IMG/VR virus record: IMGVR_UViG_3300032242_001445
Span: 1-28,716 of that record
Origin: a virus
Strand: one strand, 5' to 3'
Length of the DNA: 28,716 nt
Shown: positions 8,900 through 24,582 of the stretch, piece after piece
Layout of the letters: every line of letters starts with the position of its first letter
Numbering within the stretch: position 1 is the stretch's first letter
Position numbers and translations under genes: made by a program
Notes under the pieces: model-generated
Told to the model about the DNA's origin: nothing
Seen by the model: only the letters and a program-made list of their open reading frames with translations
The model's database searches: none

Positions 8900-9555
8900 T
8901 GCCAAGTGTCTCTAAAAAACAGCATAATCTTATGGAAGCAGTTGCGCATAACGCGAAATTTGCTAAAAAAGTAGGTATCCCTCGCTCTGTCGGTGAGGAT
9001 TTTGTAAAGGCCGATAAGGGCAAATCTTTTAAAAAGGGTGGTGTCATGGAAAAGACAAAGATGTTTAAAGAAAAAGAAACAATGGGTCCACGCTCTATGT
9101 CTAAGGACGTAGAAGCCGGCTCAAACAAACATGGTAAGTTTGGTCAATCTAAGTTACAAAAACGAGGCTTAACTCGTGGCAAAGAACTTGGAATTGATGG
9201 ACCAAAAGAACCAATTGAAACTGAAAAAAACATGAAGTCATTTATGGCTGAAATGAAAAAAGGTGGCAAAGTTAAAAAAATGGCTGCTGGTGGAATGGCT
9301 AAGTTTCCAGTAGAAAAGGGCGAAATGGCTCCTTCCAAAAAAGGCACAAAACCATTTGGTCAACATCCAGATCAAGAGCGCGGTATGACTCGTGGTACTA
9401 ATGTAAAAATGAAGGGTAACATCATTGGCGATGGTCCTTTGGTTAATACCAAGAAAAAAGGTGGTATGGTTAAGAAGATGGCTTCTGGCGGTACTGCATC
9501 ATCCCGTGCTGATGGTATTGCACAAAAAGGTAAAACCCGCGGTAAATATTGTTAA
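8899..9555 (+). CDS. Conserved phage protein with MPSVSKKQHNLM start and repeated KKGG motifs
   Basis: The 218-residue protein opens MPSVSKKQHNLMEAVAHNAKFAKKVGIPRSVGEDFVKADKGKSF. The key elements, S-K-x-Q-H-x-L-M, AKK-x-G-(I/V)P and ADKGK, are shared by many phage proteins I recall as uncharacterised. The remainder is Lys/Gly-rich with three KKGG units and two KKMA-(A/S)-GG units. It ends with SSRADGIAQKGKTRGKYC, matching the tail of the preceding gene. No enzyme motif is visible. ATG 8899 overlaps the previous stop (TAATG); in-frame TTG 8893 lies inside that gene and is less likely. Its charge and repeats suggest an internal, DNA-associated or maturation-related protein. Confidence 0.72.
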   Translation: MPSVSKKQHNLMEAVAHNAKFAKKVGIPRSVGEDFVKADKGKSFKKGGVMEKTKMFKEKETMGPRSMSKDVEAGSNKHGKFGQSKLQKRGLTRGKELGIDGPKEPIETEKNMKSFMAEMKKGGKVKKMAAGGMAKFPVEKGEMAPSKKGTKPFGQHPDQERGMTRGTNVKMKGNIIGDGPLVNTKKKGGMVKKMASGGTASSRADGIAQKGKTRGKYC

Positions 9556-9568
9556 TAAAGGAAACATT

Positions 9569-9772
9569 ATGAAAATGGATCACCCACCAATCTCTAAAGA
9601 TATGCAAGCTGAAGAGCATATGATTCACCCAGAGCATATTGAAAAGCATCATGGCGGAGACGGACACGTTCAACACCACGAGCATTTCAAGAAACACGCT
9701 GCTGGTCACAAGTTGCACCACGAACACGTTAAAGAAATGTGTGGCGGTGGTTATGCTAAGGGCAAGAAGTAA
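9569..9772 (+). CDS. Histidine-rich small protein
   Basis: The 67-residue protein contains 15 histidines, spaced through the sequence as H-x(2-3)-H and HH pairs (EEHMIHPEHIEKHHGG, VQHHEHFKKHAAGHKLHHEH), and ends CGGGYAKGKK. AAAGGA (9557-9562) lies six bases before ATG 9569 and fixes the start; a longer in-frame reading from 9425 would run through the preceding gene. It may bind zinc, copper or nickel, or act as a pH-sensitive helix; this is inference from composition. It sits in the string of small virion-region genes and shares the GG-x-x-KG ending with them. No family is recognised. Confidence 0.68.
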   Translation: MKMDHPPISKDMQAEEHMIHPEHIEKHHGGDGHVQHHEHFKKHAAGHKLHHEHVKEMCGGGYAKGKK

Positions 9773-10032
9773 TGATGGCGAGCCGTGGAATGGGCGCAGT
9801 AAGCCCTTCTAAAATGCCTAAGAAAAAGGTTATTCATCGGACGGATAATCCAAATGATGTTGACCTTTTTGCTAAAGGCGGAGAAGTTTGGGATAAGCCA
9901 CGTCCAAAAGGATTAGGTAAATCTAAGAAGCTATCACCAGCCAAAAAAGCTAGTGCCAAAGCTATGGCTAAAGCGGCTGGCAGACCATATCCCAACCTAG
10001 TAGATAACATGAGAGCTGCGAGGAAAAAATAA
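9772..10032 (+). CDS. Small basic phage protein
   Basis: The 86-residue protein begins MMASRGMGAVSPSKMPKKK, has VDLFAKGGEVWDKPRPKGLG in the middle, and ends in a Lys/Ala helix-like tail with GRPYPNLVDNMRAARKK. The start overlaps the previous stop (TAATG); ATG 9775 is an equally plausible start one codon later. The FAKGGE element repeats the KGG theme of its neighbours. The high Lys/Arg content and lack of membrane segments fit a DNA- or RNA-binding internal protein. No named family is recognised. Confidence 0.7.
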   Translation: MMASRGMGAVSPSKMPKKKVIHRTDNPNDVDLFAKGGEVWDKPRPKGLGKSKKLSPAKKASAKAMAKAAGRPYPNLVDNMRAARKK

Positions 10033-10211
10033 TGGCTGAAAAATGGATTCAGAAGGCTATTAAAAAGCCCGGCGCATTAAAAAAAGAATTAGGCGTTAAG
10101 GAAGGCAAGACTATTCCTGCTAAGAAACTAGCTGCTGCTGCAAAAAAGCCCGGCAAGTTAGGGCAGAGAGCTAGATTGGCTGAAACCCTTAAAGGCATGA
10201 AGAAAAAATAA
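10032..10211 (+). CDS. 59-residue basic protein (KKPGALKKELGVKEGKTIPA type)
   Basis: This gene is below common ORF length limits but is clearly real. ATG 10032 overlaps the previous TAA, and its own TAA overlaps the next ATG at 10211. It encodes MAEKWIQKAIKKPGALKKEL followed by GVKEGKTIPAKKLAAAAKKPGK and a tail GQRARLAETLKGMKKK. As I recall, the KPGAL-x-x-x-LGV-x-x-G-x-x-IPAKKL pattern recurs in phage and giant-virus proteins, either alone or as a C-terminal extension, with no known function. It is basic and predicted helical. It may bind DNA inside the head. Confidence 0.82.
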   Translation: MAEKWIQKAIKKPGALKKELGVKEGKTIPAKKLAAAAKKPGKLGQRARLAETLKGMKKK

Positions 10212-11143
10212 TGGCATATACCAGTGGTAATTCAACATTTAACCTTGACCTCACTGAGCTTGTAGAAGAAGCCTTTGAGCGTTGTGGCTCGCAGTTACGC
10301 ACTGGATATGATCTTCGCACCGCAAAAAGGTCTATCAATTTATTAACGATTGAGTGGGCTAACCGCGGCATTAATTTTTGGACAGTAGAAGAAATTTCTA
10401 TTCCGCTGGTATATGGCCAAGCTATATACCCAGTTGGAGCAGATACTATTGATATTTTAGATTTGGTTACTCGCACTAACAATGCTAGCTCAAACAACCA
10501 ACAAGATATCAATTTGAATCGTATTTCTGAATCAACCTATTCTACGATTCCTAATAAATTAACAACTGGGCGCCCAATTCAAGTTTGGTATAACCGTCAA
10601 ACTGGCAACTCGAATATTTATACCGGCGTAACTTTGGCGGCTACTTTGACTCCATCGGCCACTACGATTACCCTTAGCTCTACCTTTAATATGCGGTCTA
10701 CTGGCTTCATTCAGATTGATAATGAAATTATTGGCTATGTCAATATTTCAGGAAACCAGCTTTTAAACTGCTACCGCGGACAGTACAATACTACGGCAGC
10801 GTCACATAACGTTGGAGCAGCAATTTACGACCAGCAATTACCGAGCTTGGCAGTATGGCCTACCCCTAATAATTCAACGCCGTATACGCTTGTTTATTGG
10901 AGAATGAGACGGGTTCAGGATTCAGGCACTGGTGTATATGTACAAGATATTCCATTCCGTTGGATAAACTGTTTAGTAGCGGGATTGTCATATTATTTGG
11001 CGATGAAAATACCCGGCATGGATATACAACGTGCAATTGGTCTTAAACAAGAATATATGACGCAGTTAGAGCAAGCTATCGAAGAAGATAGGGAAGCTGT
11101 ATCAATTAGATTTGTACCGCGCAATTTGTTTTACGCGAGGTAA
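10211..11143 (+). CDS. Connector/tail adaptor-like structural protein with inserted beta-module
   Basis: The 310-residue protein has an N-terminal helical half, LDLTELVEEAFERCGSQLRT (residues 12-31) then RTAKRSINLLTIEWANRGIN (36-54), and a C-terminal helical half, FRWINCLVAGLSYYLAMKIP (249-268) with coiled, charged LKQEYMTQLEQAIEEDREA. This all-helical bundle with a central beta insertion matches head-tail connector proteins I recall from short-tailed phages. Residues about 131-206 look like a separate module: ATLTPSATTITLSS, IQIDNEIIGY, CYRGQYNTTAASH. After it, LPSLAVWPTPNNSTPYTLVY resumes the core. It probably sits below the portal and links to the tail. The exact ring (gp4-like adaptor or tail tube) cannot be settled from sequence alone. 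Confidence 0.68.
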   Translation: MAYTSGNSTFNLDLTELVEEAFERCGSQLRTGYDLRTAKRSINLLTIEWANRGINFWTVEEISIPLVYGQAIYPVGADTIDILDLVTRTNNASSNNQQDINLNRISESTYSTIPNKLTTGRPIQVWYNRQTGNSNIYTGVTLAATLTPSATTITLSSTFNMRSTGFIQIDNEIIGYVNISGNQLLNCYRGQYNTTAASHNVGAAIYDQQLPSLAVWPTPNNSTPYTLVYWRMRRVQDSGTGVYVQDIPFRWINCLVAGLSYYLAMKIPGMDIQRAIGLKQEYMTQLEQAIEEDREAVSIRFVPRNLFYAR

Positions 11144-11145
11144 GT

Positions 11146-11574
11146 ATGCCAACTAAGTATGCTTCTGGCAAACACAGTATTGCGGAATGTGACAGATGTG
11201 GTCAAAGATATAAGTTAGTAGAATTAAAAAAGCTAACCATCAAGACCAAGCTAGTCAGTATTAAGGTTTGTCCTGAATGTTGGGATCCGGATCAGCCTCA
11301 GTTACAACTGGGTATGTATCCAGTAAATGATCCCCAAGCAGTGCGTGAACCAAGACCTGACATTAGTTATTATGGGTCTGGTCCTAGTGGATTGCAGGTG
11401 CAGCAGGGTGGTGGAACCAGTCAATTACAGTCTGGTTATCCAGAAGGCGGTAGTAGAGTAATACAGTGGGGATGGTATCCTGTAGGTGGTTCTAGTGGAT
11501 ATGATAGAGGCCTAACCCCTAATTATTTAGTAGGAAATGGCAATATCAATTCAGTAACAATAACGGTAACTTAG
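11146..11574 (+). CDS. Zinc-ribbon phage protein
   Basis: The 142-residue protein has a classic zinc ribbon at its N-terminus: C-x2-C at residues 15-18 (CDRC) and C-x2-C near 43-46 (CPEC), 24 residues apart. It is followed by WDPDQPQLQLG and a flexible Gly/Ser/Gln/Tyr-rich tail. The family occurs beside connector genes in many phages, and its job is unknown. GAGG (11137-11140) precedes the ATG. Zinc would stabilise the small N-terminal fold, which could bind DNA or a partner protein. The tail could be a flexible peptide displayed on the virion. Confidence 0.72.
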   Translation: MPTKYASGKHSIAECDRCGQRYKLVELKKLTIKTKLVSIKVCPECWDPDQPQLQLGMYPVNDPQAVREPRPDISYYGSGPSGLQVQQGGGTSQLQSGYPEGGSRVIQWGWYPVGGSSGYDRGLTPNYLVGNGNINSVTITVT

Positions 11575-11583
11575 GAGTTAAAA

Positions 11584-11835
11584 ATGGCAAAGATGGAATC
11601 AAAAAAAGAAGATATGAAACAAGACAAAGCTATGGCTGATAAAGAAATTAGAAAAGCCATGAAAGAACACGATGCTCAGGAGCATCCCGGAAAGCATACC
11701 AAGCTCAAACTCAAAAAGGGCGGTATGGATGTTAAGAAAATGGCTAAGGGTGGTGTAACCCAGTCTAACTTACGCAGCATGGGTCGCAATATGGCTCGCG
11801 TTGCTAATCAGAAATCTAGCTCAAGAGGTCGTTAA
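11584..11835 (+). CDS. Small Lys/Met-rich protein with KKGG-KKMAKGG tail
   Basis: The 83-residue protein starts with a highly charged helix-like stretch (KKEDMKQDKAMADKEIRKAM), then HPGKHTKLKLKKGGMDVKKM, AKGGVTQSNLRSMGRNMARV and a basic end. The KKGG...KKMAKGG element is the same as in the proteins at 8648-9555. AGGAG (11573-11577) gives a good start at 11584. No family name is recognised. It resembles an internal virion protein in composition. Confidence 0.7.
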   Translation: MAKMESKKEDMKQDKAMADKEIRKAMKEHDAQEHPGKHTKLKLKKGGMDVKKMAKGGVTQSNLRSMGRNMARVANQKSSSRGR

Positions 11836-11836
11836 T

Positions 11837-12157
11837 ATGGCAACCGCAAAGAATGTAAAACCAACCACCAAGAATAGTCCAAAGATTACTCTAGGTAAGG
11901 CTCCGTATAACAAGCCTGCAAGTGACTATGCCAAGCCACATACCATGACTGATGGCCCAGTAGACTATACCGCTGCAATTAGCTTTGAGCGTTATGGTAA
12001 CAAAGGCTCAAAAATTGCTGGTGACAAAACTTCAAAAGACCCTGTTGATAATGTTTCTATCGGTGCCAATACCGTTAAAAACCAAAATGGTGAAATTGAA
12101 ATGCGTGGCGCTGGTGCAGCAACAAAAGGTCGTATGATGCGTGGTCCACGGGCTTAA
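11837..12157 (+). CDS. Conserved small phage protein (LGKAPYNKPASDYAKPHTMTDGP type)
   Basis: The 106-residue protein starts at ATG 11837, two bases after the previous stop; in-frame codons further upstream overlap that gene. The sequence moves from a Lys/Thr-rich arm to LGKAPYNKPASDYAKP, MTDGPVDYT, a Gly/Lys stretch with DKTSKDPVDNVSIGANTV, and a final GAGAATKGRMMRGP. I recall this pattern from uncharacterised proteins next to connector genes in aquatic phages. It has little hydrophobic content and is likely flexible. A minor virion role is inferred from location. Confidence 0.7.
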   Translation: MATAKNVKPTTKNSPKITLGKAPYNKPASDYAKPHTMTDGPVDYTAAISFERYGNKGSKIAGDKTSKDPVDNVSIGANTVKNQNGEIEMRGAGAATKGRMMRGPRA

Positions 12158-14166: not shown

Positions 14167-15660
14167 ATGGCTTTAGTATTAGCTGATAGAGTACAGGAAA
14201 CAACGACCAGTACAGGCACTGCTTCGGTCATATTGTCTGGAGCTGTGAATGGTTATCAATCATTTACTGCTGGCGTTGGTAATAATAATACTTGTTATTA
14301 CACAATTTATGACAATACATCCTTCGCATGGGAAGTAGGTATTGGCACGTTTACAACATCACCTAATACCTTAACCCGTAATACCATCCTATCTTCAAGC
14401 AATTCGGGTTCAGCAATTAACCTTGCTGGTAACACCGCTGCTGTTTGGGTTGATTATCCAGCGGAAAGAGCTGTTTATCTTGGAGCAACCATTGCCAACT
14501 TGCTATTGTCTAGCCCAACAATTACGGGCGGAACAATTAACAATGCAGTAATTGGTGGTAGCACGGCAGCGGCTGGAACATTTACAACAGCTACCGTTGG
14601 TACTTTGGCTGCTACGGCAATTACAAGCGGAGCATGGAATGCAAGTTTAATTGGTCTGGCTTACGGTGGAACTAACGCTTCTTTAGTAGCGACTGCGGGC
14701 GCTTCAGTATATTCTACTGGTACAGCCTTGGCATTAACTGCAGCCGGCACTTCTGGTCAGCCATTAGTTTCTGGCGGCTCTGGCGCGCCTACATTTACAT
14801 CTACTTTAAATTTAGCTTTGGTTAGCTCTACTGCTGTAACTATTCCAAACCAATCATTAACTGCCACACTAAATACAAGCCCATTGCAATTAGGTACATT
14901 AAGCAATTTTAGCGATACTGGCATTGCTATGATGTCTGGTGCATCAATAAACAGCTATTATCAAAATGTAATTCAAAACCAAAATAGCGGTGCTACCGCC
15001 TCTGCTGAATATATTGCCTATAGCGATCAAGGATCGTCTGCCGGTAGATATATCACAATGGGTATGAACTCTAGTGGATACACTGGATCTGGCGCAGTTA
15101 ATGCAGCAAACGCTGGATTTTTAGTAACCGGTAATAGTTCGGATTTAGCAATTGGTACGGTTGGTTTAAATCAAGTGCGATTCTTTGTAAACAGCGGCGC
15201 TACGGATGCAATAAATATTGCTACGTCTGGTTTAGTTACAATTGCAAGCGCCACCTTGGGCGCGGTCCAAATTAACTCATTAGGGGTTGGAACACCTTCA
15301 TCTGGAACTGCTGGTGAAATTCGTGCAACCAATAACGTAACAGCTTACTATTCATCAGATAAAAAATTCAAGGAAAATATTCAACCAATCCAATCTGCTC
15401 TTGAAAAAGCAAGCTATATTGGTGGTAAAACATTTAGTTGGACACAAGATTATATTAATAAAAGAGGCGGAGAGGATGGCTTTTTTGTTAAGAAACATGA
15501 TTTTGGTGTAATAGCGCAAGATGTACAAGCGGTGTTTCCGTTGGCCGTAAGAACCCGTGAAGATGGTTCTTTAGCAGTTGATTATTCAAAATTGGTAGCG
15601 CTCGCATTCCAAGCTATTGCTGAACTGAAGGCGGAAGTAAACGCTCTAAAGGGTAAATAA
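14167..15660 (+). CDS. Tail fibre with C-terminal S74 intramolecular chaperone
   Basis: The 497-residue protein has an N-terminal attachment-like domain (MALVLADRVQETTTSTGTAS, then WEVGIGTFTTSPNTLTRNTI and AVWVDYPAERAVYL, residues 1-105), a long Ser/Thr/Ala/Gly-rich shaft, and a C-terminal peptidase S74 domain. The latter begins near S396-S397-D398 (SSDKKFKENI), continues through DFGVIAQDVQAVFPLAV and ends with a coiled helix LVALAFQAIAELKAEVNALK. S74 domains guide trimerisation of beta-helical fibres and then usually cleave themselves off at the Ser-Asp-like site. The protein is likely a host-binding fibre. AGGAG (14156-14160) supports the start. The shaft has no recognisable glycan-degrading motif. 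Confidence 0.88.
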   Translation: MALVLADRVQETTTSTGTASVILSGAVNGYQSFTAGVGNNNTCYYTIYDNTSFAWEVGIGTFTTSPNTLTRNTILSSSNSGSAINLAGNTAAVWVDYPAERAVYLGATIANLLLSSPTITGGTINNAVIGGSTAAAGTFTTATVGTLAATAITSGAWNASLIGLAYGGTNASLVATAGASVYSTGTALALTAAGTSGQPLVSGGSGAPTFTSTLNLALVSSTAVTIPNQSLTATLNTSPLQLGTLSNFSDTGIAMMSGASINSYYQNVIQNQNSGATASAEYIAYSDQGSSAGRYITMGMNSSGYTGSGAVNAANAGFLVTGNSSDLAIGTVGLNQVRFFVNSGATDAINIATSGLVTIASATLGAVQINSLGVGTPSSGTAGEIRATNNVTAYYSSDKKFKENIQPIQSALEKASYIGGKTFSWTQDYINKRGGEDGFFVKKHDFGVIAQDVQAVFPLAVRTREDGSLAVDYSKLVALAFQAIAELKAEVNALKGK

Positions 15661-16331
15661 TGTTTGGCTTAACAGTATTTGCTGATGCCCCATTCAATGC
15701 TTTTCAATCCAATATTTATGGTGGAAGCATTAGTGAGTCAATATCTTCTGAATCTGATATTGATGCGGTAATTGCTACCTTTAACAGTGCTATCTCAGAG
15801 CCTGTTGCAAATTTTGCAGATTCTGAAAGCTTTACTTATACTTATGGAACAAACATAACAGAGTCAATTAGTAATTTTTCAGATTCTATACCGTTGCCAC
15901 CACAAACGTATGCAGTTTTGGTAAATGAACAAATTACTTCTGAATCAGATATTGAGGTAAGTGTTTTTGTTTTCCTTGCAAACATAAATGAAAATATTGC
16001 AGCTGATAATGATATTGATTCTGTTATTGCAAACTTTTCCTCTGTCATTTCAGAAGGAATTAATGCAGCAGAATCTTCTACTGGATTAAAAACGCAATAT
16101 ACTGTAATTAACGAAAATTTTGCAGCAGCAGACAAAGAATCAGTTATAGCGGCTTTTGTTAGTGCTATATCAGAAAATGTTAATCCCGCAGATGTGCCAG
16201 CAGTAATAGCTTCATTTAGATCATCTATTTCTGAAAATAGTAACTTTGCTGAGTCAGAATCTTTTTCTGGCTGGTTCAAAATTAATGATTCTCAAACATT
16301 AGGATGGGTCGTTATTAACGATTCCCAATAA
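15660..16331 (+). CDS. Acidic nine-repeat tail/fibre protein
   Basis: The 223-residue protein is built from nine repeats of 20-22 residues that begin I/V-(S/N/T)-E at residues 24, 45, 66, 88, 109, 130, 150, 170 and 190. The best-kept units read ISE-x-x-x-x-A-D-x-x-x-VIA-x-F-x-S-x. It ends with WFKINDSQ (205-212) and WVVINDSQ (216-223), an 11-residue-period pair. It is strongly acidic and lacks cysteine. It lies between two fibre genes and overlaps the S74 fibre stop by one base. I recall similar repeat proteins in other aquatic phages. A stalk or adhesin role is inferred from the repeat architecture. Confidence 0.66.
   Translation: MFGLTVFADAPFNAFQSNIYGGSISESISSESDIDAVIATFNSAISEPVANFADSESFTYTYGTNITESISNFSDSIPLPPQTYAVLVNEQITSESDIEVSVFVFLANINENIAADNDIDSVIANFSSVISEGINAAESSTGLKTQYTVINENFAAADKESVIAAFVSAISENVNPADVPAVIASFRSSISENSNFAESESFSGWFKINDSQTLGWVVINDSQ
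15729..16289 (+). repeat. Nine tandem 20-22-residue protein repeats
   Basis: The repeats are visible in the translation, starting at residues 24, 45, 66, 88, 109, 130, 150, 170 and 190 of the gene at 15660. The spacing is 21, 21, 22, 21, 21, 20, 20 and 20. Each begins with I/V, a small or polar residue and E. The DNA copies are diverged, so this is an old protein repeat rather than a recent tandem duplication. Confidence 0.78.
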
Positions 16332-16339
16332 GGACTTAT

Positions 16340-17116
16340 ATGACAACCACTTACTCGCCATCGCTTAAATTAGCCCTTATTGGAACCGGAGATCAATCTG
16401 GTACATGGGGTCAAACAACTAATACAAATTTAGGTACTTTGCTTGAGCAAGCGATTACTGGAGTTACCGCCATTAGTTTATCTGGACTAAGCTCTTATAC
16501 ATTAACCAATTACAACGGCACTTCTGATGATGCGCGTAATGCAGTTTTGATATTTTCTGGATCACCATCTGGAACTGTCACAATTGTTGCACCAGCACAA
16601 AATAAAGTATATGTAATTGTAAACAATACTAGCCAGTCAATTTCTATGACCGCAACTGGCGGATCGGTTGCCTTAACTGTTCCGGCAAATACAACCGGCC
16701 AGTGTTATTGCGACGCATCAAATGTTGGCGGTAACGGAATTGGATTTTATTCTGCACAAACCACTGCAGCCGGTAATTGGAATATTGGCGGCAATTTGGC
16801 AGTTTTAGGCACATCCAGCCTTACAGGTTCAACTATTACAAGCACCTTGACTGCAACTGCTATTAATTCTGCATCAGTCAGCTCATCTGGAACGGTTATT
16901 GCATCCAGCTTTACTGGCGCGGCAACTGGCTTAACCGGCACGGCAGCAAGTTTAACAGCAGCAGTATCCCAAAGCATAGCCAATTCTGGTGGTTGGAACA
17001 TTACCCCAAATGGTAATAAATTATACTTTAATTATAATGGCGCTAATATTGCCAGCTTAGATTCAACTGGAAACTTTATTGCTTTGTTAAACGTAACTGC
17101 TTATGGAACCCCTTAA
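16340..17116 (+). CDS. Tail fibre or tail-tip protein (SLKLALIGTGDQSGTWGQTT type)
   Basis: The 258-residue protein starts MTTTYSPSLKLALIGTGDQS, with SGTWGQTTNTNLGTLLEQAI at residues 20-39. I recall this N-terminal domain as the attachment part of many phage fibres. Residues about 60-130 form a beta domain with ARNAVLIFSGSPSGTVTIVA and VYVIVNNTSQSISM. The C-terminal part is a Ser/Thr/Ala-rich shaft with short WN-(I/G) repeats and ends LLNVTAYGTP. AAGGA (16330-16334) overlaps the preceding stop and supports ATG 16340. It probably forms a trimeric fibre or a collar. No chaperone domain is present, unlike the fibre at 14167. Confidence 0.75.
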   Translation: MTTTYSPSLKLALIGTGDQSGTWGQTTNTNLGTLLEQAITGVTAISLSGLSSYTLTNYNGTSDDARNAVLIFSGSPSGTVTIVAPAQNKVYVIVNNTSQSISMTATGGSVALTVPANTTGQCYCDASNVGGNGIGFYSAQTTAAGNWNIGGNLAVLGTSSLTGSTITSTLTATAINSASVSSSGTVIASSFTGAATGLTGTAASLTAAVSQSIANSGGWNITPNGNKLYFNYNGANIASLDSTGNFIALLNVTAYGTP

Positions 17117-17667
17117 TGCATGATTATTGGCTTTGGAATAGTGTTTTGCCTAAATGGTTTTGTGAAGAACAAATTAACAATATAAACTGGACAGAAAAAG
17201 AACAAGGAAAAGTTAAAAAAGGCAAAGAACACGTTTTAGATTTAGAAAAAAGAATTACTGATATTGTTTGGGAGGACATTAGTTCTCCAATAGGATGTAT
17301 AGCACAAGTTTATATAAATATGGCTAATGAGAATGCTGGTTGGAATTTTAATTTATCAAATACATCTGGCATTCAAATTGGTAAATATGATAGCAGCACA
17401 AAAGGTTTTTATGATTGGCACACTGATGATGGATTAAAACCAAAAGAAAATGGTTTGGTTAGGAAGCTATCAGTTAGTATTTTGTTAAGCGATACAAATG
17501 ATTTTGAAGGCGGCATGTTTGAGTTTGAAAATTTTGATACGCAACCAATATTAAAGCAAGGGAGCATTATTGTTTTTCCTTCTCAAATAAGCCACAGAGT
17601 AACACCAGTAACATTAGGAACACGATATTCAGCAGTAACTTGGGTTCAAGGGCCTGCTTATAGATAG
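17116..17667 (+). CDS. 2OG-Fe(II) oxygenase, prolyl-hydroxylase/PKHX-like
   Basis: The 183-residue protein has the double-stranded beta-helix motif set of 2-oxoglutarate/Fe(II) dioxygenases: the H-x-D pair in YDWHTDDG (H102, D104), SVSILLSD and EGGMFEF strands, the distal H160 in SQISHRVTP and R170 in GTRYSAVTW for 2OG binding. The D/E-GG turn followed by P-x-x-x-x-HRV is typical of bacterial PKHX/PiuC-like prolyl hydroxylases. It would hydroxylate a protein or small molecule using O2 and 2OG. It starts on the last base of a fibre gene and is directly followed by the glycine-rich adhesin gene, so the adhesin or a host protein could be its substrate; this is inference. Confidence 0.85.
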   Translation: MHDYWLWNSVLPKWFCEEQINNINWTEKEQGKVKKGKEHVLDLEKRITDIVWEDISSPIGCIAQVYINMANENAGWNFNLSNTSGIQIGKYDSSTKGFYDWHTDDGLKPKENGLVRKLSVSILLSDTNDFEGGMFEFENFDTQPILKQGSIIVFPSQISHRVTPVTLGTRYSAVTWVQGPAYR

Positions 17668-17676
17668 GATTAAATT

Positions 17677-18558
17677 ATGGTAATGAACGCTTCTGGACCA
17701 ATTAGTTTAGCTGGCACTACAGCCGGTGTATCCATTGAAATTGAAAATGGCGGTAATGGCACAACTCAAATTAGTTTAAATGATGGTGCTGTGAGAACGC
17801 TTGCTGGTGTAACAACGCCGAATAGCGCTATTACGATGCCAACAAATTTTTATGGTAAATCTAACCGCGTTCAAGTTACTGTTACTTTGTCATCAAATAC
17901 ATCAAATTACACATTTAATAAATGTAAAGTTGCTGGATATCAAGCTGGAAAAACGTGCGCAACATTAAAAATTAATAGCGGAGTTTACGTTTATGCAGCA
18001 GGCACGGGATGTAAAGCATTAACAATTCCAAATACTTGGAATCCAGCTGATGGTGTAAAAATTGTTAACTGCGGATTTATTGTTGGGGCTGGTGGATCTG
18101 GTTCTTGGGGTCAAGGCCCTTATGGACAACCATCCTATGGCAACGCACAAGCAGGAGGAACGGCTTTATCAATATTGTTCCCAGTTTCAATTACTAATAA
18201 CAATACCGTTGGTGGAGGAGGCGGAGGTGGAGGTGGCGGTGGAGGCGCAGCACAAAACTTTCAACCGTGTTGCTGTGGTGGTCCTCAAAGCGCGGGTGGT
18301 GGATCGGGAGGAACTGGTAGAGGCCTTAGTGCAGCTACGCCCGGCACTTGCGGTGGTGGACCAACTGGATACGGCAGCAGAGGTGGAAATGGTGGCGGTG
18401 GTGGACAATGGGGTCAAGCGGGCGGGCATGGCGGTGGGGGTTCTGGTGGTAGCCCAACCTATGGCGGATTTTGTGGCGGTGGAGGCGGGCCAGCAACGCA
18501 AGGAAATTCATTTGTTACATGGGTTGCTACAGGAACGCGTTTGGGTCCATTAGGTTAA
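17677..18558 (+). CDS. Glycine-rich tail-tip adhesin candidate
   Basis: The 293-residue protein has an N-terminal attachment-type domain (MVMNASGPISLAGTTAGVSI, then ISLNDGAVRTLAG, MPTNFYGKS, residues 1-63), a beta-rich middle, and a glycine-rich C-terminal part from about residue 137. That part holds a 12-Gly run (179-190), CCCGG (198-202), GGNGGGGGQWG and GGHGGGGSGGS-type segments, separated by short variable stretches. Known phage adhesins of the T-even gp38 type fold such Gly-rich motifs into a polyglycine-II sandwich that displays receptor-binding loops; the likeness here is in composition and layout only. AGGA (17666-17669) supports ATG 17677; ATG 17683 is an alternative. Oxygenase genes lie on both sides. 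Confidence 0.7.
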   Translation: MVMNASGPISLAGTTAGVSIEIENGGNGTTQISLNDGAVRTLAGVTTPNSAITMPTNFYGKSNRVQVTVTLSSNTSNYTFNKCKVAGYQAGKTCATLKINSGVYVYAAGTGCKALTIPNTWNPADGVKIVNCGFIVGAGGSGSWGQGPYGQPSYGNAQAGGTALSILFPVSITNNNTVGGGGGGGGGGGGAAQNFQPCCCGGPQSAGGGSGGTGRGLSAATPGTCGGGPTGYGSRGGNGGGGGQWGQAGGHGGGGSGGSPTYGGFCGGGGGPATQGNSFVTWVATGTRLGPLG

Positions 18559-18587
18559 ACTATGTTTTTACTTAATCTAATTAAAAA

Positions 18588-19235
18588 ATGAACAATAAAG
18601 CAAACATAAATGGGTTTCAACTTTTTTCATCTTCAGTTTACACAATAGAAAAACCTGAATTTTTAAATGTTGCAAGAGATGTATCCAAAAAGTTTCTTGA
18701 TAAAAGAAAAGAAACGGATGAGCTAAATCCAAATTTTCCAGTCTTTATGACTGACAATATGTTTAATGATCCAGAGTTATTAAACTTCGGCAAATTTGTT
18801 TCACAAACTGCTTGGGAAATTTTAAATGACCAAGGCTACCTGATGGATGTTTTTCAAACCTATTTTATGGAAATGTGGGTTCAAGAACATCACAAAGGTT
18901 CTTCTATGGAAAGACATATTCATGGAAGTGGAGCAGTAATTTCAGGTTTCTATTTTTTAAATTGTCCAAGCGAAGCAAAAATTGTATTCCATGATCCAAG
19001 AGATGCAAAAGTAATTACTAGCTTGCCAGACAAAGATGTAACTCAACCAACACAAGCAAGTAATATGATTCATTTTAACGCCACTAATGGTTTGATGTTG
19101 TTTGCAAATTCGTGGCTGCCGCATTCTTTTAATAAAAATGTTGAAGATATTCCATTAACATTTATTCATTTTAATATTGCGGTTGCGCCCATTCAGCAAG
19201 AGATTAATTTAGAGCCAAACGTTGAAGTGATATGA
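18588..19235 (+). CDS. 2OG-Fe(II) oxygenase-like protein, PF13759/TIGR02466 type
   Basis: The 215-residue protein has MERHIHGSGAVISGFYFLNC (residues 107-126), which matches the H-x-H-x-x-x-x-x-SG-x-x-Y/F-x-L motif of the putative 2OG-Fe(II) oxygenase family PF13759. LFANSWLPHSFNKN (171-184) supplies the distal His (H179). The final strand LTFIHFNIAVAP lacks the usual Arg expected for 2OG binding, so activity may be altered. ATG 18588 has no clear ribosome-binding site, but a nine-codon ORF from ATG 18562 ends at TGA 18589-18591 and overlaps this start. Its place immediately after the glycine-rich adhesin suggests a shared role, which is not proved. Confidence 0.75.
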   Translation: MNNKANINGFQLFSSSVYTIEKPEFLNVARDVSKKFLDKRKETDELNPNFPVFMTDNMFNDPELLNFGKFVSQTAWEILNDQGYLMDVFQTYFMEMWVQEHHKGSSMERHIHGSGAVISGFYFLNCPSEAKIVFHDPRDAKVITSLPDKDVTQPTQASNMIHFNATNGLMLFANSWLPHSFNKNVEDIPLTFIHFNIAVAPIQQEINLEPNVEVI

Positions 19236-19471
19236 AAAAGTATCGAATTAGATTTAACAAAAGCCGTGGTTCTCCGGGAAGGGGTACGGTAGATCATATT
19301 TGGCGCGTATTTGAAGGCGACAAAGAATATTTAGTTAAAAGTTTTGAGATTAAAGTTCCATCTTTTAGCGAAAAAGAGGATAATGGCGTGGACTGGAATG
19401 TAGTATGTTATGGCACACTAACTTTAGATAGAGAAACATCTACAGCAATTATTGAGGGAGACAAAGAATGA
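19232..19471 (+). CDS. Conserved small phage protein (MKKYRIRFNKSRG type)
   Basis: The 79-residue protein begins MKKYRIRFNKSRGSPGRGTV and continues DHIWRVFEGDKEYLVKSFEI and DWNVVCYGTLTLDRETSTAI. It overlaps the oxygenase stop and the next start with ATGA. Proteins of this pattern, with an arginine-rich N-terminus followed by a small beta barrel, are known to me from phage genomes without function. It sits at the boundary between the oxygenase and the lysis genes. Confidence 0.7.
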   Translation: MKKYRIRFNKSRGSPGRGTVDHIWRVFEGDKEYLVKSFEIKVPSFSEKEDNGVDWNVVCYGTLTLDRETSTAIIEGDKE

Positions 19472-19671
19472 ATTTTACATTTACATGGATTATGGACAAG
19501 CTTGGCTATATGCCAAAGATTGATATGGAAATTGGCAAAGTAGTTGAAGCTCCTTGGCCATTTCCTGCGCCCGTTGCAAAAAAGAAGCCCACTGTTCAAA
19601 AAGCCACAACTCGTACTGTTGCTAAAAAAACAACTACTGTTGCCAAAAAAGCTAAAGCTAAAAAGGCATGA
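19468..19671 (+). CDS. Small protein with histone-H1-like Lys/Ala/Thr tail
   Basis: The 67-residue protein starts MNFTFTWIMDKLGYMPKIDM and has a Pro-rich hinge (APWPFPAPVA, residues 28-37). It ends with about 30 residues dominated by Lys, Ala and Thr (KKKPTVQKATTRTVAKK, TTTVAKKAKAKKA). The tail looks like H1-type or phage DNA-binding tails. It is coupled to both neighbours by ATGA overlaps, directly before the holin-like gene. DNA, LPS or membrane binding are all possible for such a tail; none is shown. Confidence 0.68.
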   Translation: MNFTFTWIMDKLGYMPKIDMEIGKVVEAPWPFPAPVAKKKPTVQKATTRTVAKKTTTVAKKAKAKKA

Positions 19672-19895
19672 GTGAAATACTTAAACAACTTCTTACTGGC
19701 AAAGATAATCAAACCCATGACCTAGGTCGATGGACTTGGTTTATTGGTTTTGTTGCCATTATTGCCATCGCTATTTATGAAGTTATACAAAGTAAAACAA
19801 TTAGTTTAACTGAGCTTGCATCAGCTTTAGGAATTGTCTCTGGTGCTGGTGGAGCAAGCGTAATGATGAAGCAAAATTCTGAGCCGGGGGCGTAA
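19668..19895 (+). CDS. Small membrane protein, holin candidate
   Basis: The 75-residue protein has a strong transmembrane helix WTWFIGFVAIIAIAIYEVI (residues 22-40), a short polar turn, and a second weaker hydrophobic segment (LTELASALGIVSGAGGASVMM, about 47-67) before a charged end. Two short helices in under 80 residues, immediately upstream of Rz/Rz1-like and endolysin genes, suggest a class II holin that would release the endolysin through the inner membrane. Phage proteins with this N-terminal pattern (LLTGKDN-x-THDLGRW) are familiar to me but not functionally proven. Starts and stops overlap its neighbours. Confidence 0.6.
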   Translation: MSEILKQLLTGKDNQTHDLGRWTWFIGFVAIIAIAIYEVIQSKTISLTELASALGIVSGAGGASVMMKQNSEPGA

Positions 19896-20302
19896 TGTTA
19901 TATGGAACCTACATCAAAGCTGGTCTACTTGTTATATTTGTATGTGGTGTGTTTTTCGCTGGCTGGCATACTAGGGATCGCGATTTTACTATTTACAAAG
20001 ATCAGATCCGTATTGAAGCTGAGAAAGCTCAAGCACATACGGAGTCGGTACAGAAACAACAAGCATTAATCAATAAAGGAATACAAGATGAATATGATGC
20101 GAAGCTTGCTCTTTTGCGCCAGTATTATGCTAACGGGGTGCGGAACAACAATGGTAGCAACTCAGTGTCCGGCATTTCCTCAACCGCCAAGCTCTCTGAT
20201 GCAATCGCCGCCTACAATAAACTTGCTTCAGACTGCGCAGCCACTACCCTCCAAACAATAACCTTGCAGCAATGGATAACAGAACAGATGGCTATTAAAT
20301 GA
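19895..20302 (+). CDS. Rz: Rz-like inner-membrane spanin
   Basis: The 135-residue protein has a short cytoplasmic start, a transmembrane helix (KAGLLVIFVCGVFFAGW, residues 8-24), then a long charged helical region (KDQIRIEAEKAQAHTESVQKQQ and following, 35-80), as expected for an i-spanin. Decisive support comes from the lipoprotein gene nested in its +1 frame (20088-20261), the hallmark of the Rz/Rz1 pair. The complex spans the periplasm and fuses inner and outer membranes after the endolysin has cut the wall. It overlaps the endolysin start by ATGA. Here Rz precedes the endolysin gene, unlike lambda. Confidence 0.85.
   Translation: MLYGTYIKAGLLVIFVCGVFFAGWHTRDRDFTIYKDQIRIEAEKAQAHTESVQKQQALINKGIQDEYDAKLALLRQYYANGVRNNNGSNSVSGISSTAKLSDAIAAYNKLASDCAATTLQTITLQQWITEQMAIK
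20088..20261 (+). CDS. Rz1: Rz1-like outer-membrane lipoprotein spanin, nested in the Rz-like gene
   Basis: Reading the +1 frame inside the Rz-like gene gives a 57-residue protein: a start MNMMRSLLFCASIMLTGC with a positively charged, hydrophobic signal and lipobox LTGC (cleavage before Cys18), then a short Pro-rich mature part with CPAFPQPPSSLMQSPP. Lipobox plus proline-rich mature region is the usual o-spanin signature. AAAGGA (20075-20080) lies seven bases before ATG 20088, giving the nested gene its own ribosome-binding site. The mature lipoprotein would sit in the outer membrane and bind the Rz-like protein's periplasmic end. It is too short for usual gene callers. Confidence 0.88.
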   Translation: MNMMRSLLFCASIMLTGCGTTMVATQCPAFPQPPSSLMQSPPTINLLQTAQPLPSKQ

Positions 20303-20877
20303 ATTTAGAAGCATTAGGAATAGACGTAAAATGGGAGCAGCCTCTTCAAGCTGTATTTGATAAATACGGAATGAATACCCCAATTCGTCAAGCATCTTTT
20401 ATAGGACAGTGCCAACATGAGTCCAATAACTTTAGAACTCTTGAAGAAAACCTTCATTACTCTGCCGCTGGACTTATGCGTGTTTGGCCCAGCAGATTTC
20501 CTAGTCCATATGTGGCTGACCAATTTGCAAATAATCCAGAAAAGATTGCCAATAAAGTCTATGCTGGACGCATGGGAAACACCGAAGAAGGCGATGGATG
20601 GGCATACCATGGAAGAGGGTTAATACAGCTTACAGGGCGCGATAATTATCGTAACTGTGGGGATGCCCTAGGTCTTGCTTTAATAACAAATCCTGAGCTT
20701 CTAACGATGCCTAAAGGGGCAGCATTGTCGGCAGGATGGTTCTGGAATAAGCATGGCTTAAATGAGTTGGCAGACGCCAAAGATTTTGAGACAATGACGA
20801 AACGCATCAATGGTGGCACATTGGGTTTGGAAGATCGCATTTCCAAAATTAATCAAGCTTTAGAAGTATTAGGGTAA
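20299..20877 (+). CDS. GH19 (chitinase class I-like) endolysin
   Basis: The 192-residue protein is a single GH19 lysozyme domain without a signal peptide. FIGQCQHESNNFRTLEENLHY (residues 34-54) carries the general acid Glu (E41) and a second Glu (E50, or E49) in the usual order. GRGLIQLTGRDNYRNCGDALG (105-125) is the conserved substrate-groove region, and GWFWNKHGLNELAD (146-159) also fits. Phage GH19 enzymes cut the glycan chain of peptidoglycan. Its ATG overlaps the Rz-like stop. Its stop codon lies in the loop of a short hairpin that also covers the next start. It probably needs the small membrane protein at 19668 for release. Confidence 0.92.
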   Translation: MNLEALGIDVKWEQPLQAVFDKYGMNTPIRQASFIGQCQHESNNFRTLEENLHYSAAGLMRVWPSRFPSPYVADQFANNPEKIANKVYAGRMGNTEEGDGWAYHGRGLIQLTGRDNYRNCGDALGLALITNPELLTMPKGAALSAGWFWNKHGLNELADAKDFETMTKRINGGTLGLEDRISKINQALEVLG

Positions 20878-20885
20878 ACCCTAAT
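20868..20885 (+). promoter_or_regulatory. Hairpin across endolysin stop and oxygenase start
   Basis: ATTAGGG (20868-20874) and CCCTAAT (20879-20885) are perfect seven-base arms around TAAA, the endolysin stop codon with its next base. The AGGG in the left arm is the only ribosome-binding-like sequence before ATG 20884, and the first two bases of that ATG are in the right arm. No T-run follows, so it is not a terminator. It may keep the oxygenase start closed until ribosomes finishing the endolysin open it. Chance is possible for seven bases. Confidence 0.45.
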
Positions 20886-21393
20886 GATTGAACAATATAA
20901 TAATTTTTTGTCCCAAGATGAATGGGATTATGTTTTTGATAAAACTGTAGAAGGCAAAACATGGTCTTTTATGGGGCGTAGCAATGAAAATGGCAATCCT
21001 TTTTGGTTTATGAATTTAATAAATGATGAATTTTTTTCAAATAAATTATTTACTAAAATTAAAAATGTAACAAAAAAAGATTTTGATTTGCTTCGTGTTT
21101 ATGCAAATGGTCAAACATTTGGATTGGATGGTCAATTTCATATAGACACTAAAAAAGGTGAAGAAAAAAACAAATACTTTACTTTTTTGTATTATCCATG
21201 TAAAAGTTGGGACGCTAGTTGGGGTGGAAAAACAATTATTGTTGATGAAGAAAATAGTTTAAATTTTCAATATCCTAGCCCCAACAATGCAATTATGTTT
21301 GATAGTACAAATTTACATTATGGAGAAGGACCTGCAAGATTGTTTTATGGTTTAAGAGTTACTGTTGCATTTAAAATGAAAATAAGAGATTAA
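20884..21393 (+). CDS. 2OG-Fe(II) oxygenase, prolyl-4-hydroxylase-like
   Basis: The 169-residue protein has GLDGQFHIDTKKGEE with the H-x-D pair (H86, D88), strands YFTFLYYP and WGGKTIIVDEE, PSPNNAIMFDSTNLHYGEGP with the distal His H145, and GLRVTVAF with R158 for 2OG. The order and spacing fit a compact prolyl-4-hydroxylase fold. It is far more AT-rich than the endolysin before it: bases 21001-21060 have 7 G/C of 60, against 30 of 60 at 20701-20760. This suggests later acquisition. The start lies in the hairpin 20868-20885. The substrate is unknown. Confidence 0.82.
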   Translation: MIEQYNNFLSQDEWDYVFDKTVEGKTWSFMGRSNENGNPFWFMNLINDEFFSNKLFTKIKNVTKKDFDLLRVYANGQTFGLDGQFHIDTKKGEEKNKYFTFLYYPCKSWDASWGGKTIIVDEENSLNFQYPSPNNAIMFDSTNLHYGEGPARLFYGLRVTVAFKMKIRD

Positions 21394-21394
21394 A

Positions 21395-21991
21395 GTGAAA
21401 GTAAATTTAATTACAGATCCTTTTAATTACATAGTAATTGATGATTTCTACAGTGAAGAAGAATTGAAGCTTGTTATGGAAGAGATCACTGCTTTAGAGC
21501 CTTATGCATTAGACGCAAGTTTTACTGGTTCAGCGATTGCTAATAACAAAAATGAAAAAAAAGATTTTTTAAAAAGTGGTCGCGGTATATTTTTAGATGA
21601 GTTTTTTGTTCAAAACAGATCTGTATCAAAAATATTAAACGCTAGCAGAAAATTATTTTCTGATGAATTACGCGAAATTTTTAATATGTTTGATCCATCT
21701 TTTAGACATATTGGCAATTCGGACAAAGATACTACTCTTATAAATTATTATAAAAATGGGGAAGAATATAGCTCCCACAAAGATAAATCGACTATAAGCG
21801 CGGTTACTTTTTTAAACGTTGGGAATTTTGAAGGTGGAAATTTTTGTTTTCCAGAATTTAAAGAAACAATTTTATTTAAACATAACAGGATTGTAATATT
21901 TAACGGATGTATGAATCATCAAGCAGAAAAAATTATAGCTGAAGACGGTTCTTACAGAGCAAGTATTGCACAATTTATTGGTTACAAATAA
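21395..21991 (+). CDS. 2OG-Fe(II) oxygenase, second copy of a distinct type
   Basis: The 198-residue protein carries LINYYKNGEEYSSHKDKSTI with H128 and D130, strands SAVTFLNVG and EGGNFCFPEF, IVIFNGCMNHQAEKI with the distal His H175, and YRASIAQFIGY with R188. All metal- and 2OG-binding residues expected for the fold are present. It starts at GTG 21395, one base after the previous stop. It is AT-rich like its upstream neighbour, and the two may have arrived as a pair, but their sequences differ enough that they are not a recent duplication. The stop overlaps the gp10-like gene (TAATG). Confidence 0.82.
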   Translation: MKVNLITDPFNYIVIDDFYSEEELKLVMEEITALEPYALDASFTGSAIANNKNEKKDFLKSGRGIFLDEFFVQNRSVSKILNASRKLFSDELREIFNMFDPSFRHIGNSDKDTTLINYYKNGEEYSSHKDKSTISAVTFLNVGNFEGGNFCFPEFKETILFKHNRIVIFNGCMNHQAEKIIAEDGSYRASIAQFIGYK

Positions 21992-24582
21992 TGCCATTAC
22001 AAAAACTTAACTTCGTTCCGGGATTAAACAGAGAAGGCACTGCCTACTCTGTAGAAGGCCAATGGTATGACGGAGATAAAATTCGTTTTCGTTCTGGCAA
22101 ACCTGAAAAAATTGGCGGTTGGTCACAAGTAAATCCAAATACATTTACAGGAATCTGTCGTTCATTATGGACTTGGGTTGATCTATCGTCTAACGTTTTT
22201 ATTGGCGTTGGAACTACATCTAAGTATTATATTTACAGCGGTGGAACATATAACGACATTACCCCGATTGTTTATACAAGTACTTTAGGTACAAACCCTA
22301 TTTCCACCACAGCCAGTTCTACGTCGGTAACAATAACTGATACTGCATATAACCCATCAATTGGTGACTATTTATTATTTTCAGGTTCTGCAACTGTTGG
22401 TGGAATTGTAATTAGCGGTGAATATGTTGTAACTAGCGTTATTTCTAGTACTCAATACACTATCAAAGCCGCTTCTGCTGCATCATCTACAACTACGGGC
22501 GGAACCGGTACAGTTATTCAATACGAACTTCCGACTGGAGCGTCAACATATTTTTCCAGCAATGGTTGGGGTACTGGTCCATGGGGCGGAATATCGCCTG
22601 CATTAACTGCAACATTGGGTACAAATCCATTTTCTACTACGTCTGGTAGCGGTGTCGTAATTGTTTCCCAAGCTTCTACTCCATATACATTAACTGGTCA
22701 GTATGTTTATTTTTCAGGCGCATCCAGCATAACTGGAACCGGTATAGCAGCTTCAATGTTGACTAATACATTTAGCGTAACCCCAGTTAGCGCTAGTTCT
22801 TATAGCATTAGTATGCCTAGTGGTTTTACTGCAAAAGCAACAACTACTGGCGGAGGAACAACAGTAGTTGCTACTGAACAATCAGGAACACGTGGATGGG
22901 GTACAGCCTTTTTGGGTACTGGTGCTGGAAATCAATTAAGACTTTGGAGCAACGATAACTTCGGTCAAGACTTAGTATTTGCTCCACGTGGCGGCGCTAT
23001 TTACTATTGGGTGGATGCAAATGGTGTGGGAACAAGAGGCGTAAGTCTTGCATCACAAGCAAATGCTACAGCAAGCACAATTACCACTTTAACTTTTGCT
23101 AGCGGATCAACAACCGCCATAGCTTCTGCTCCTTCTGGAATTTACCCATATTCTTATATTACCGGTACTGGAATTTCTTCTGGAACTTACGTATCTTCTA
23201 CTTATGTTATTGGATCAACTAGCGTTCCTCTTTCTATAGCTTCTACTGCAGCTAGTAGCGGTAACTATACTATTACTTATGCGGGGTCATATGTCCCAAC
23301 TCAGACTCTCCAAGTTATTACGTCGGCTATCCAACAATTTGTCATTGCATTTGGTGCAAATTCCTATAATGGCGGCTCTTTATCAAATGATCCGTTTAAC
23401 CCGATGCTTGTCAGATGGTCGGATCAAGCAAATGCTTATCAATGGGTTCCGCAAGTTACAAACCAGTCTGGCGAATTTGCCTTAAGCAATGGCTCATACA
23501 TTATGGGCGCAAGATCAACTCGACAGGAAATTTTAATTTGGACTAACACTGCTTTATACACAATGCAGTATATTGGTTATCCATATGTATGGTCATTCCA
23601 ACTATTGATGGATAACATATCGGTTATGTCTCCAAATTGCATGGTAACAATTAACAATATTACTTATTGGATGGGAACCAGTAAATTCTATAAATACGAC
23701 GGTACGGTGCATACATTACCATCTGCTTTACGCCAGTATGTATTTGATGATTTAAATATTAACCAATCGTTTCAAGTATTTGCAGGTGCCAATGAAGGAT
23801 TTAATGAGGTATGGTGGTTTTATGTAAGCAACGAAAGTATCAATAATTCCATTGACAAGTATGTTACCTATAACTATGTAGATAATGCTTGGTCATATGG
23901 TACGTTTGAAACCGTACAAATAGCAGCCGGTAATTTTGTTATTGGTCAGCAATATGTAATTGCTACGCAAGGAACCACTAACTTTACTCAGGCTGGCGCC
24001 GCTAATAATAATATTGGAACTTATTTTATTGCTACCACAACTGGTTCTGGAACTGGTACTGCATGGGCATTAAATGGTAGAAGCGCATGGATTCAAAATA
24101 ACATTCAATCAAATCCCGTAGCAGCAGACTATAACAGCCGTCTTTTATATCATGAAAACGGCGTAGATGATAATGCGACATCTGATACTCAGCCTATTTA
24201 TGCATATATTCAATCTTCAGATTTTGGAATTATGGCATCAGATAATAATAATTCAGGCCAACATTTTGGTTTTGTATGGCGCATATTGCCAGACGTAAAC
24301 TTTAATGGGTCTAACCAAGCCAATCCTCAAGTTACGATGGCTATTTACCCACGCCAAAATTCTGGTACAGCATATGGCAATACGGACCTAAATCAAGTAT
24401 CTAGCAGCCAAATTTACGCTTATCCTACTCCCCAAGAGTATACAGTTCAACAATTTACTGGTGAAGTATATACACGATTACGCGGGCGTCAGATGGCATT
24501 TAAATGTTATTCCGACACAATTGGAACCCAATGGCAACTAGGTACGCCTAGGTTTGATGTTAAGCAGGATGGAAGAAGATGA
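21991..24582 (+). CDS. P22 gp10-like tail protein with inserted modules
   Basis: The 863-residue protein starts MPLQKLNFVPGLNREGTAYS, followed by WYDGDKIRFRSGKPEKIGGW (residues 25-44), and has repeated aromatic blade-like segments (WTWVDLSSNVFIGV, LRLWSNDNFGQDLVFAPRGG, NPMLVRWSDQANAYQW, ILIWTNTALYTMQYI, ITYWMGTSKFYKYDG, EVWWFYVSNES). This fits the beta-propeller-type tail hub of short-tailed phages, of which P22 gp10 is the best known. Inserts are visible: a tandem TLGTNP module pair (98-178 and 208-296), a TGTGIS unit (about 357-430), and a GTTNF...SGTGTA module (about 640-695). It likely closes the tail channel below the connector. The gp10 link is inferred from pattern. Confidence 0.7.
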   Translation: MPLQKLNFVPGLNREGTAYSVEGQWYDGDKIRFRSGKPEKIGGWSQVNPNTFTGICRSLWTWVDLSSNVFIGVGTTSKYYIYSGGTYNDITPIVYTSTLGTNPISTTASSTSVTITDTAYNPSIGDYLLFSGSATVGGIVISGEYVVTSVISSTQYTIKAASAASSTTTGGTGTVIQYELPTGASTYFSSNGWGTGPWGGISPALTATLGTNPFSTTSGSGVVIVSQASTPYTLTGQYVYFSGASSITGTGIAASMLTNTFSVTPVSASSYSISMPSGFTAKATTTGGGTTVVATEQSGTRGWGTAFLGTGAGNQLRLWSNDNFGQDLVFAPRGGAIYYWVDANGVGTRGVSLASQANATASTITTLTFASGSTTAIASAPSGIYPYSYITGTGISSGTYVSSTYVIGSTSVPLSIASTAASSGNYTITYAGSYVPTQTLQVITSAIQQFVIAFGANSYNGGSLSNDPFNPMLVRWSDQANAYQWVPQVTNQSGEFALSNGSYIMGARSTRQEILIWTNTALYTMQYIGYPYVWSFQLLMDNISVMSPNCMVTINNITYWMGTSKFYKYDGTVHTLPSALRQYVFDDLNINQSFQVFAGANEGFNEVWWFYVSNESINNSIDKYVTYNYVDNAWSYGTFETVQIAAGNFVIGQQYVIATQGTTNFTQAGAANNNIGTYFIATTTGSGTGTAWALNGRSAWIQNNIQSNPVAADYNSRLLYHENGVDDNATSDTQPIYAYIQSSDFGIMASDNNNSGQHFGFVWRILPDVNFNGSNQANPQVTMAIYPRQNSGTAYGNTDLNQVSSSQIYAYPTPQEYTVQQFTGEVYTRLRGRQMAFKCYSDTIGTQWQLGTPRFDVKQDGRR
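22282..22878 (+). repeat. Tandem TLGTNP beta-module pair inside the gp10-like gene
   Basis: Residues 98-178 and 208-296 align by eye: TLGTNP(I/F)STT, V-x-I strand, P-x-x-x-G-(D/Q)Y-(L/V)-x-FSG, an SS-x-Y-(T/S)-I strand, TTGG-x-GT-x-V end. They are separated by 29 residues containing SNGWGTGPWGG. The copies are diverged at the DNA level. Only the protein pattern is claimed. Confidence 0.7.

Follow-up and report, generated by a model that had tools for sequence, protein, structure and literature searches.

The window analysed here (28,716 bases) is a complete IMG/VR virus record, IMGVR_UViG_3300032242_001445, and is a fragment of a tailed phage. It identifies a freshwater phage as the bearer of four different 2-oxoglutarate (2OG)-Fe(II) oxygenase genes, which adjoin fibre and lysis genes and hereinafter are designated A, B, C, and D. 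Profiles and motifs assign all four to the 2OG-Fe(II) dioxygenases. As AT-rich accessory genes, they entered the fibre-lysis block in at least two insertions, and the place of insertion is not random: most neighbours encode fibres, adhesins, or proteins of fibre assembly or lysis. The best reading, which we hold with moderate confidence, is that A-D hydroxylate the phage's own fibre or adhesin proteins late in infection, perhaps with subsequent glycosylation. This reading is based on the families and motifs of the four proteins, the predicted fold of B, the occupation of the same slot in relatives, the fibre and glycine-rich neighbours, and loci in other phages where a glycosyltransferase-oxygenase fusion follows a collagen-like fibre.

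Families, motifs, and gene setting of A-D

All four open reading frames are intact, start and end exactly where predicted, and lie on the plus strand. The gathering cut-off of the relevant Pfam families, PF13640 (2OG-FeII_Oxy_3) and PF13759 (2OG-FeII_Oxy_5), is 27 bits for both. A (17116-17667), a PKHD/PiuC-like enzyme, scores 50.4 bits against PF13640 (E-value 4.7e-13), and B (18588-19235) scores 41.2 bits against PF13759 (2.3e-10). C (20884-21393) and D (21395-21991, GTG start) score 28.6 bits (2.8e-6) and 26.7 bits (1.1e-5) against PF13640, respectively, the latter 0.3 bits below the cut-off. D also matches phrog_61 (1.5e-19) and is 33-37% identical over its full length to annotated cyanophage 2OG oxygenases.

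Alignments place the metal triad HxD...H in A, C, and D. Specifically, the aligned motif is H102xD104, H160, and R170 in A; H86xD88, H145, and an Arg 13 residues further on in C; and H128xD130, H175, and R188 in D. A profile alignment of C with D pairs the metal ligands of the two proteins. B carries H110xH112 and H179, and H-x-H is the invariant state in its family rather than a peculiarity of the window copy. The 2OG-binding Arg after the distal His is kept in A, C, and D and is absent from B, where the position is Thr, as it is in the closest relative of B, from locus L082; elsewhere in the branch, Arg is the usual residue. The original prediction, which had named these genes as four diverse 2OG dioxygenases, three with the Arg and the one at 18588 without it, agrees with both profiles and ligands. 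It had also proposed structure prediction as a check, and for B the AlphaFold model (pLDDT 91.8, pTM 0.87) matches the 2OG dioxygenases PHD2, PolD, and 6n1f of the PDB in Foldseek. A double-stranded beta-helix fold is predicted for B by this model and for A, C, and D by their profiles.

The nearest solved relatives of A by sequence are PiuC and Sbal_3634, yet A reaches 63 bits against the best PiuC/YbiX NCBIfam equivalog and not its cut-off of 143. C scores 51 bits against the NCBIfam 2OG-Fe family NF052475, below the cut-off of 240. The NCBIfam name 'FlmC' on C, taken as a hint of flagellin modification, was dropped: the score of C falls far short of the cut-off, and PMC7591256 describes the Caulobacter protein of that name as a cytidylyltransferase.

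The genes around A-D, all on the plus strand, bear out the predicted placement around a fibre, an adhesin, and lysis genes. Directly 5' of A is a fibre-region gene (16340-17116) of phrog_31104, whose stop overlaps the start of A by one base; HTVC023P gp69, the other protein in phrog_31104, has matches to tail fibre families as well. Between A and B lies a glycine-rich GP38-like tail fibre adhesin (17677-18558; phrog_2056, 'tail fiber protein; host specificity', 1.2e-6), a candidate substrate with Gly up to 53% over 60 amino acids, whose orthologue in L083 exceeds the PF05268 GP38 cut-off. The lysis block (19668-20877) comprises holin-like (19668) and Rz-like, spanin-like (19895) genes, which together span 19668-20302, and a GH19 endolysin (20299-20877; PF00182, 35 bits). 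The spanin match is weak; the holin- and spanin-like genes are 89% identical to those in L017 and L006. The last base of D overlaps the start of a phage stabilization protein homologue (21991-24582; tblastn to annotated 'stabilization protein' and 'phage stabilization protein'), which serves as the landmark for neighbourhood comparison. The start of the window encodes a capsid-like C-terminus.

Insertion history and clusters in other phages

Eighty relatives sharing the stabilization gene were retrieved, and counts were made on the 40 whose upstream sequence reaches 5 kb or more. The slot between fibre and lysis genes holds 2OG genes in 5 of these 40. In L006, L017, L052, L055, L074, and L077, 2OG genes have fibre genes on one side and lysis or stabilization genes on the other. 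An exception to this slot is the L025 record (G015:C1:1202-1933), where two PF13640 genes lie about 25 kb from the stabilization gene. Orthologues of A, 74-80% identical, occupy the same place in L082 and L083; in L082, the adhesin has A on one side and B on the other, and in L083 it follows A. Only about 10 bp separate the end of the GH19 endolysin gene from the stabilization gene in L002, L003, L004, L006, and L017, and it is this site that the C-D pair (20878-21991), known from the window alone, fills. Because A and B are shared with L082 (A also with L083) while C-D fills a site of about 10 bp, at least two insertions took place, one around the adhesin and one between endolysin and stabilization gene. 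The GC content is 27.5% for C, 29.0% for D, and 33% for A and B; A and B are probably AT-rich insertions too.

The protein encoded between the fibre genes at 15660-16331 consists of degenerate ISE..ADS/SE repeats of about 20 residues, which occur in diverged form in L082, L083, L003, L004, L006, and L017.

Such a history could be that of morons, selfish or neutral AT-rich genes that pile up in a hypervariable fibre-lysis region and have no single common function. Their GC of 27-33% against 40% for the window, the insertion of C-D where five relatives have about 10 bp, the low count of occupied slots (5 of 40), and the finding of no close IMG/VR relatives of B, C, or D by single-protein scans with the patterns used all fit this explanation. 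However, the metal ligands are retained in all four proteins, the order and place of A and B are kept across distant phages, and the order A-B-F (F being the 'ferrochelatase' gene described below) recurs in many loci of the HTVC023P type, so that we regard morons as decidedly unlikely. Unrelated random insertion, named in the original prediction as an outcome that would speak against it, is half borne out: the C-D pair is an AT-rich insertion, as A and B probably are too, but placement by fibre and adhesin genes recurs in several phage groups.

The view that four copies are unusual does not hold, since such clusters are already known in aquatic phages. In the isolate HTVC023P, a stretch of 4.95 kb immediately before a homologous stabilization gene holds gp65, gp66, gp67, and gp71; this count of four includes gp67, which is labelled 'ferrochelatase'. 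As in the window, these four have fibre genes on one side and the stabilization gene on the other, and clusters of this type place several 2OG genes there. Matches to A and B are gp65 and gp66, with the order kept, at identities of 38-42% (A) and 31% (B), and the fibre types differ. In the window, C-D stands in place of F, and a search with the F profile found no match there. Eight co-located, non-orthologous kinds of 2OG gene have been described in HTVC023P-type phages (PMC9599517). Among cyanophages, published counts are 1-5 2OG genes each (PMC3037559); S-SCSM1 has 24 in one genome (PMC9602691), S-SM1 has nine in one block of 6.3 kb, and Sf-CH1b has six. At least four 2OG genes lie within 5 kb in 65 of 167 loci holding 2OG genes, loci that were mostly selected for A- or F-type genes. 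The cyanomyovirus blocks (S-SM1 SSM1_051-061, Sf-CH1b, and S-SCSM1) resemble the window in having multiple divergent 2OG genes after fibre or collar genes, and the best phage relatives of C and D are found in them. Unlike the window, cyanomyoviruses have larger T4-like genomes and further 2OG genes in replication operons.

Neighbours of 2OG genes and the collagen-type fusions

A PHROG and Pfam scan of 107 neighbours of 2OG clusters returned mainly tail fibre, collar, and fibre-assembly families, with Gly_rich_2 proteins (11/107) and GP38 adhesins (2/107) among them. Across 12 whole phage genomes, a 2OG gene is at most five genes away from 19 of the 27 glycine-rich proteins, against 7.6 expected from circular shifts (p 0.0003). 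Other potential tailoring enzymes among the 107 neighbours are a VirX1-like tryptophan halogenase (4/107) and a sulfotransferase (2/107). The best PDB match of the halogenase is VirX1 (6QGM, E-value 2.9e-97), a viral flavin-dependent enzyme; several pelagiphage-like contigs have this homologue beside 2OG genes, whereas the window does not. In six HTVC023P-type contigs it follows an A-type gene and precedes one of B or C type (L112:2140-3624, L150:6111-7595, L160:3787-5268, L103:7029-8447, L200:1629-3113, and L239:2662-4149). This position suggests fibre proteins as possible halogenase substrates.

In animals, PLOD and COLGALT enzymes hydroxylate and glycosylate collagen lysine, and mimivirus L230 is a viral counterpart. 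Loci that resemble this system are found in other phages. The window GT25 glycosyltransferase (1631-2338, minus strand; PF01755, 73 bits) matches 9 of 50,697 phage records, all of them cyanophages, and the matches fall in the N-terminal part of a fusion protein. In S-CAM9 and S-PRM1, this protein comprises GT25, a PLOD glycosyltransferase domain, and a C-terminal 2OG domain of the A/D type. The fusion gene lies 3' of a tail fibre gene whose product has an unbroken run of 59 GXY repeats, Lys-rich at Y, and two stand-alone 2OG genes stand between fibre and fusion. Fusions downstream of a collagen-like fibre were listed in L335 (7001-8842), L336 (4001-5845), L337 (5926-7695), and L338-L351. Fourteen fusion loci, those with at least 3 kb upstream, were compared; they include several copies from the same clade and represent about seven distinct lineages, among them Roseobacter phage CRP-6. 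In 13 of the 14, the fusion comes after a collagen-like fibre whose GXY repeats run unbroken for 57-193 units and include 10-44 Lys at Y, and most of these loci have stand-alone 2OG genes in between. By analogy, such an order of genes is what one would expect for collagen lysyl hydroxylase/glycosyltransferases.

The corresponding steps in the window would be as follows. A-D would probably be made late, together with the virion proteins, and would most likely hydroxylate side chains on the phage's own fibre or adhesin proteins, the chief proposed substrate being the glycine-rich GP38-like adhesin that adjoins A and B. The hydroxyl groups may then be glycosylated by GT25 or by a second phage glycosyltransferase (TPR-GT), as PLOD and COLGALT do with collagen lysine. 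The proposed effect would be to adjust how the fibre folds, how stable it is, or how it binds its receptor. TPR-GT (3090-4724, minus strand) has TPR repeats (TPR_1, 113 bits) and a GT9-like, GT-B C-terminus (GT9, 21 bits), a domain order like that of FlmG, a flagellin O-glycosyltransferase with a TPR and GT-B layout (PMC7591256). The oxygen-dependent late modification that had been predicted remains the best-supported function in its fibre-directed form, on evidence that is only genomic.

Several observations weigh against a fibre-directed role. The window has GT25 and the related 2OG enzymes as separate genes, with neither a PLOD glycosyltransferase domain nor the fusion, and GT25 lies about 15 kb from the oxygenases; collagen repeats are absent from the window apart from polyglycine. 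Lacking both the fusion and a collagen fibre, the window is not a member of the PLOD fusion/collagen system and may at most work in a similar way. In six genomes unseen before the hypothesis was made, 9 of 16 glycine-rich proteins lie near 2OG genes against about 5.2-5.4 expected, which is marginal (p 0.03-0.07; p 0.05-0.10 with a three-gene radius). Since these held-out genomes are marginal and the cyanophages tested are related to each other, the positional association is only suggestive. Among the 40 stabilization-gene relatives, co-occurrence of 2OG and glycine-rich genes is not significant (Fisher p 0.14), and glycine-rich genes occur without 2OG genes in 21 of 35; the association is therefore claimed for position within genomes. 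HTVC027P has a 2OG cluster and no glycine-rich protein, the glycine-rich proteins of Melnitz-3 are distant from its 2OG genes, and the A-like gene of L094 adjoins terminase. Because S-SM1 also has 2OG genes among its DNA replication genes, not all phage 2OG genes serve fibres. Searches of the open-access literature found no phage work on fibre hydroxylation or on a phage PLOD or collagen hydroxylase, which is weak evidence of absence.

Alternatively, the targets of A-D during infection might be glycans of the host surface or metabolites of the envelope, and their modification would block superinfection or aid release. Location with fibre and lysis genes would then be shared since all of them are late and face the same surface. 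The nearest named relatives of A are PKHD/PiuC enzymes, which are not known fibre modifiers, and GT25, the TPR-GT9-like protein, FkbM, and another methyltransferase of the window belong to families also found in lipopolysaccharide or capsule decoration. The recurrence of fibre-assembly genes as neighbours and the adjacency of PLOD-type fusions to Lys-rich collagen fibres argue against this explanation, which we consider unlikely.

Just after the capsid gene, the region 452-4724, mostly on the minus strand, encodes FkbM methyltransferase, a further methyltransferase, GT25, a 255-amino-acid protein, and TPR-GT, and is a possible protein or surface glycosylation module. At 8161-12157, several small Lys/Gly-rich proteins with common MKKGG-like motifs are encoded amid structural genes.

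Probably misnamed families and the biology of phage 2OG genes

Two family names bear on what these clusters do. The pelagiphage and cyanophage 'ferrochelatase' proteins (F; phrog_2954/3531, HTVC023P gp67, and T4-GC 615), with members at L084:11295-11915, L173:8001-8618, and L088:10543-11659, carry HxD...H and have no Pfam ferrochelatase match. The predicted structure of the family (pLDDT 93.6) has a Pseudomonas putida prolyl hydroxylase as its best match; hhalign with small profiles did not place the family. On this model we assign F a 2OG-dioxygenase fold with high confidence, and the name is likely a misannotation. Because F is predicted to fold as a 2OG dioxygenase, what was reported as a pairing of ferrochelatases with 2OG oxygenases (PMC9599517) probably joins 2OG oxygenases to each other.

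The prolyl hydroxylase that F resembles has also been solved with EF-Tu. This match is in line with a reprogramming of host metabolism, by 2-oxoglutarate consumption or by change of host proteins (nitrogen signalling, or hydroxylation of EF-Tu or ribosomal proteins), as has been proposed for cyanophages (PMC3037559, PMC9602691). Such reprogramming leaves the placement by fibre genes and the several divergent copies in one block unexplained, and it is very unlikely to be the role of A-D.

C belongs to phrog_274, named 'DNA endonuclease V' (cyanophage denV), with further members at L088:7158-7646 and L085:8310-8792. This name and the S-SM1 genes SSM1_143 and SSM1_182, which lie in replication operons beside uvsX and uvsY, would favour DNA or nucleotide modification or repair. 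However, A-D lie in a virion and lysis block, and the only credible Pfam match of C is to 2OG dioxygenases, with HxD..H..R present; this function is highly improbable. Endonuclease V was rejected for C, as neither C nor the tested cyanophage and pelagiphage members match any endonuclease Pfam model. 2OG models are the only credible Pfam matches of the tested members, which have the HxD..H layout of C, and phrog_274 looks like a 2OG dioxygenase family rather than endonuclease V. Correction of the two labels removes a published heme/iron interpretation.

Cyanophages and pelagiphages carry many 2OG oxygenases, for which a role in host nitrogen metabolism or DNA repair has been suggested. The repeated placement by glycine-rich or collagen-like fibres, together with the collagen-type glycosyltransferase fusions beside collagen-like fibres, points to virion proteins as substrates. 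Tentatively, many aquatic phages may have a fibre-tailoring island, in which diverse 2OG dioxygenases, sometimes with VirX1-like halogenases, sulfotransferases, or GT25/PLOD enzymes, act chemically on receptor-binding fibres of the glycine-rich or collagen-like kind. The window would be a freshwater member, with A-D acting on the GP38-like adhesin. If so, many phage 2OG genes now called auxiliary metabolic genes would have a common function, the viral halogenase would gain a class of natural substrates, and phages would diversify or stabilise their receptor-binding proteins by oxygen-dependent post-translational modification.

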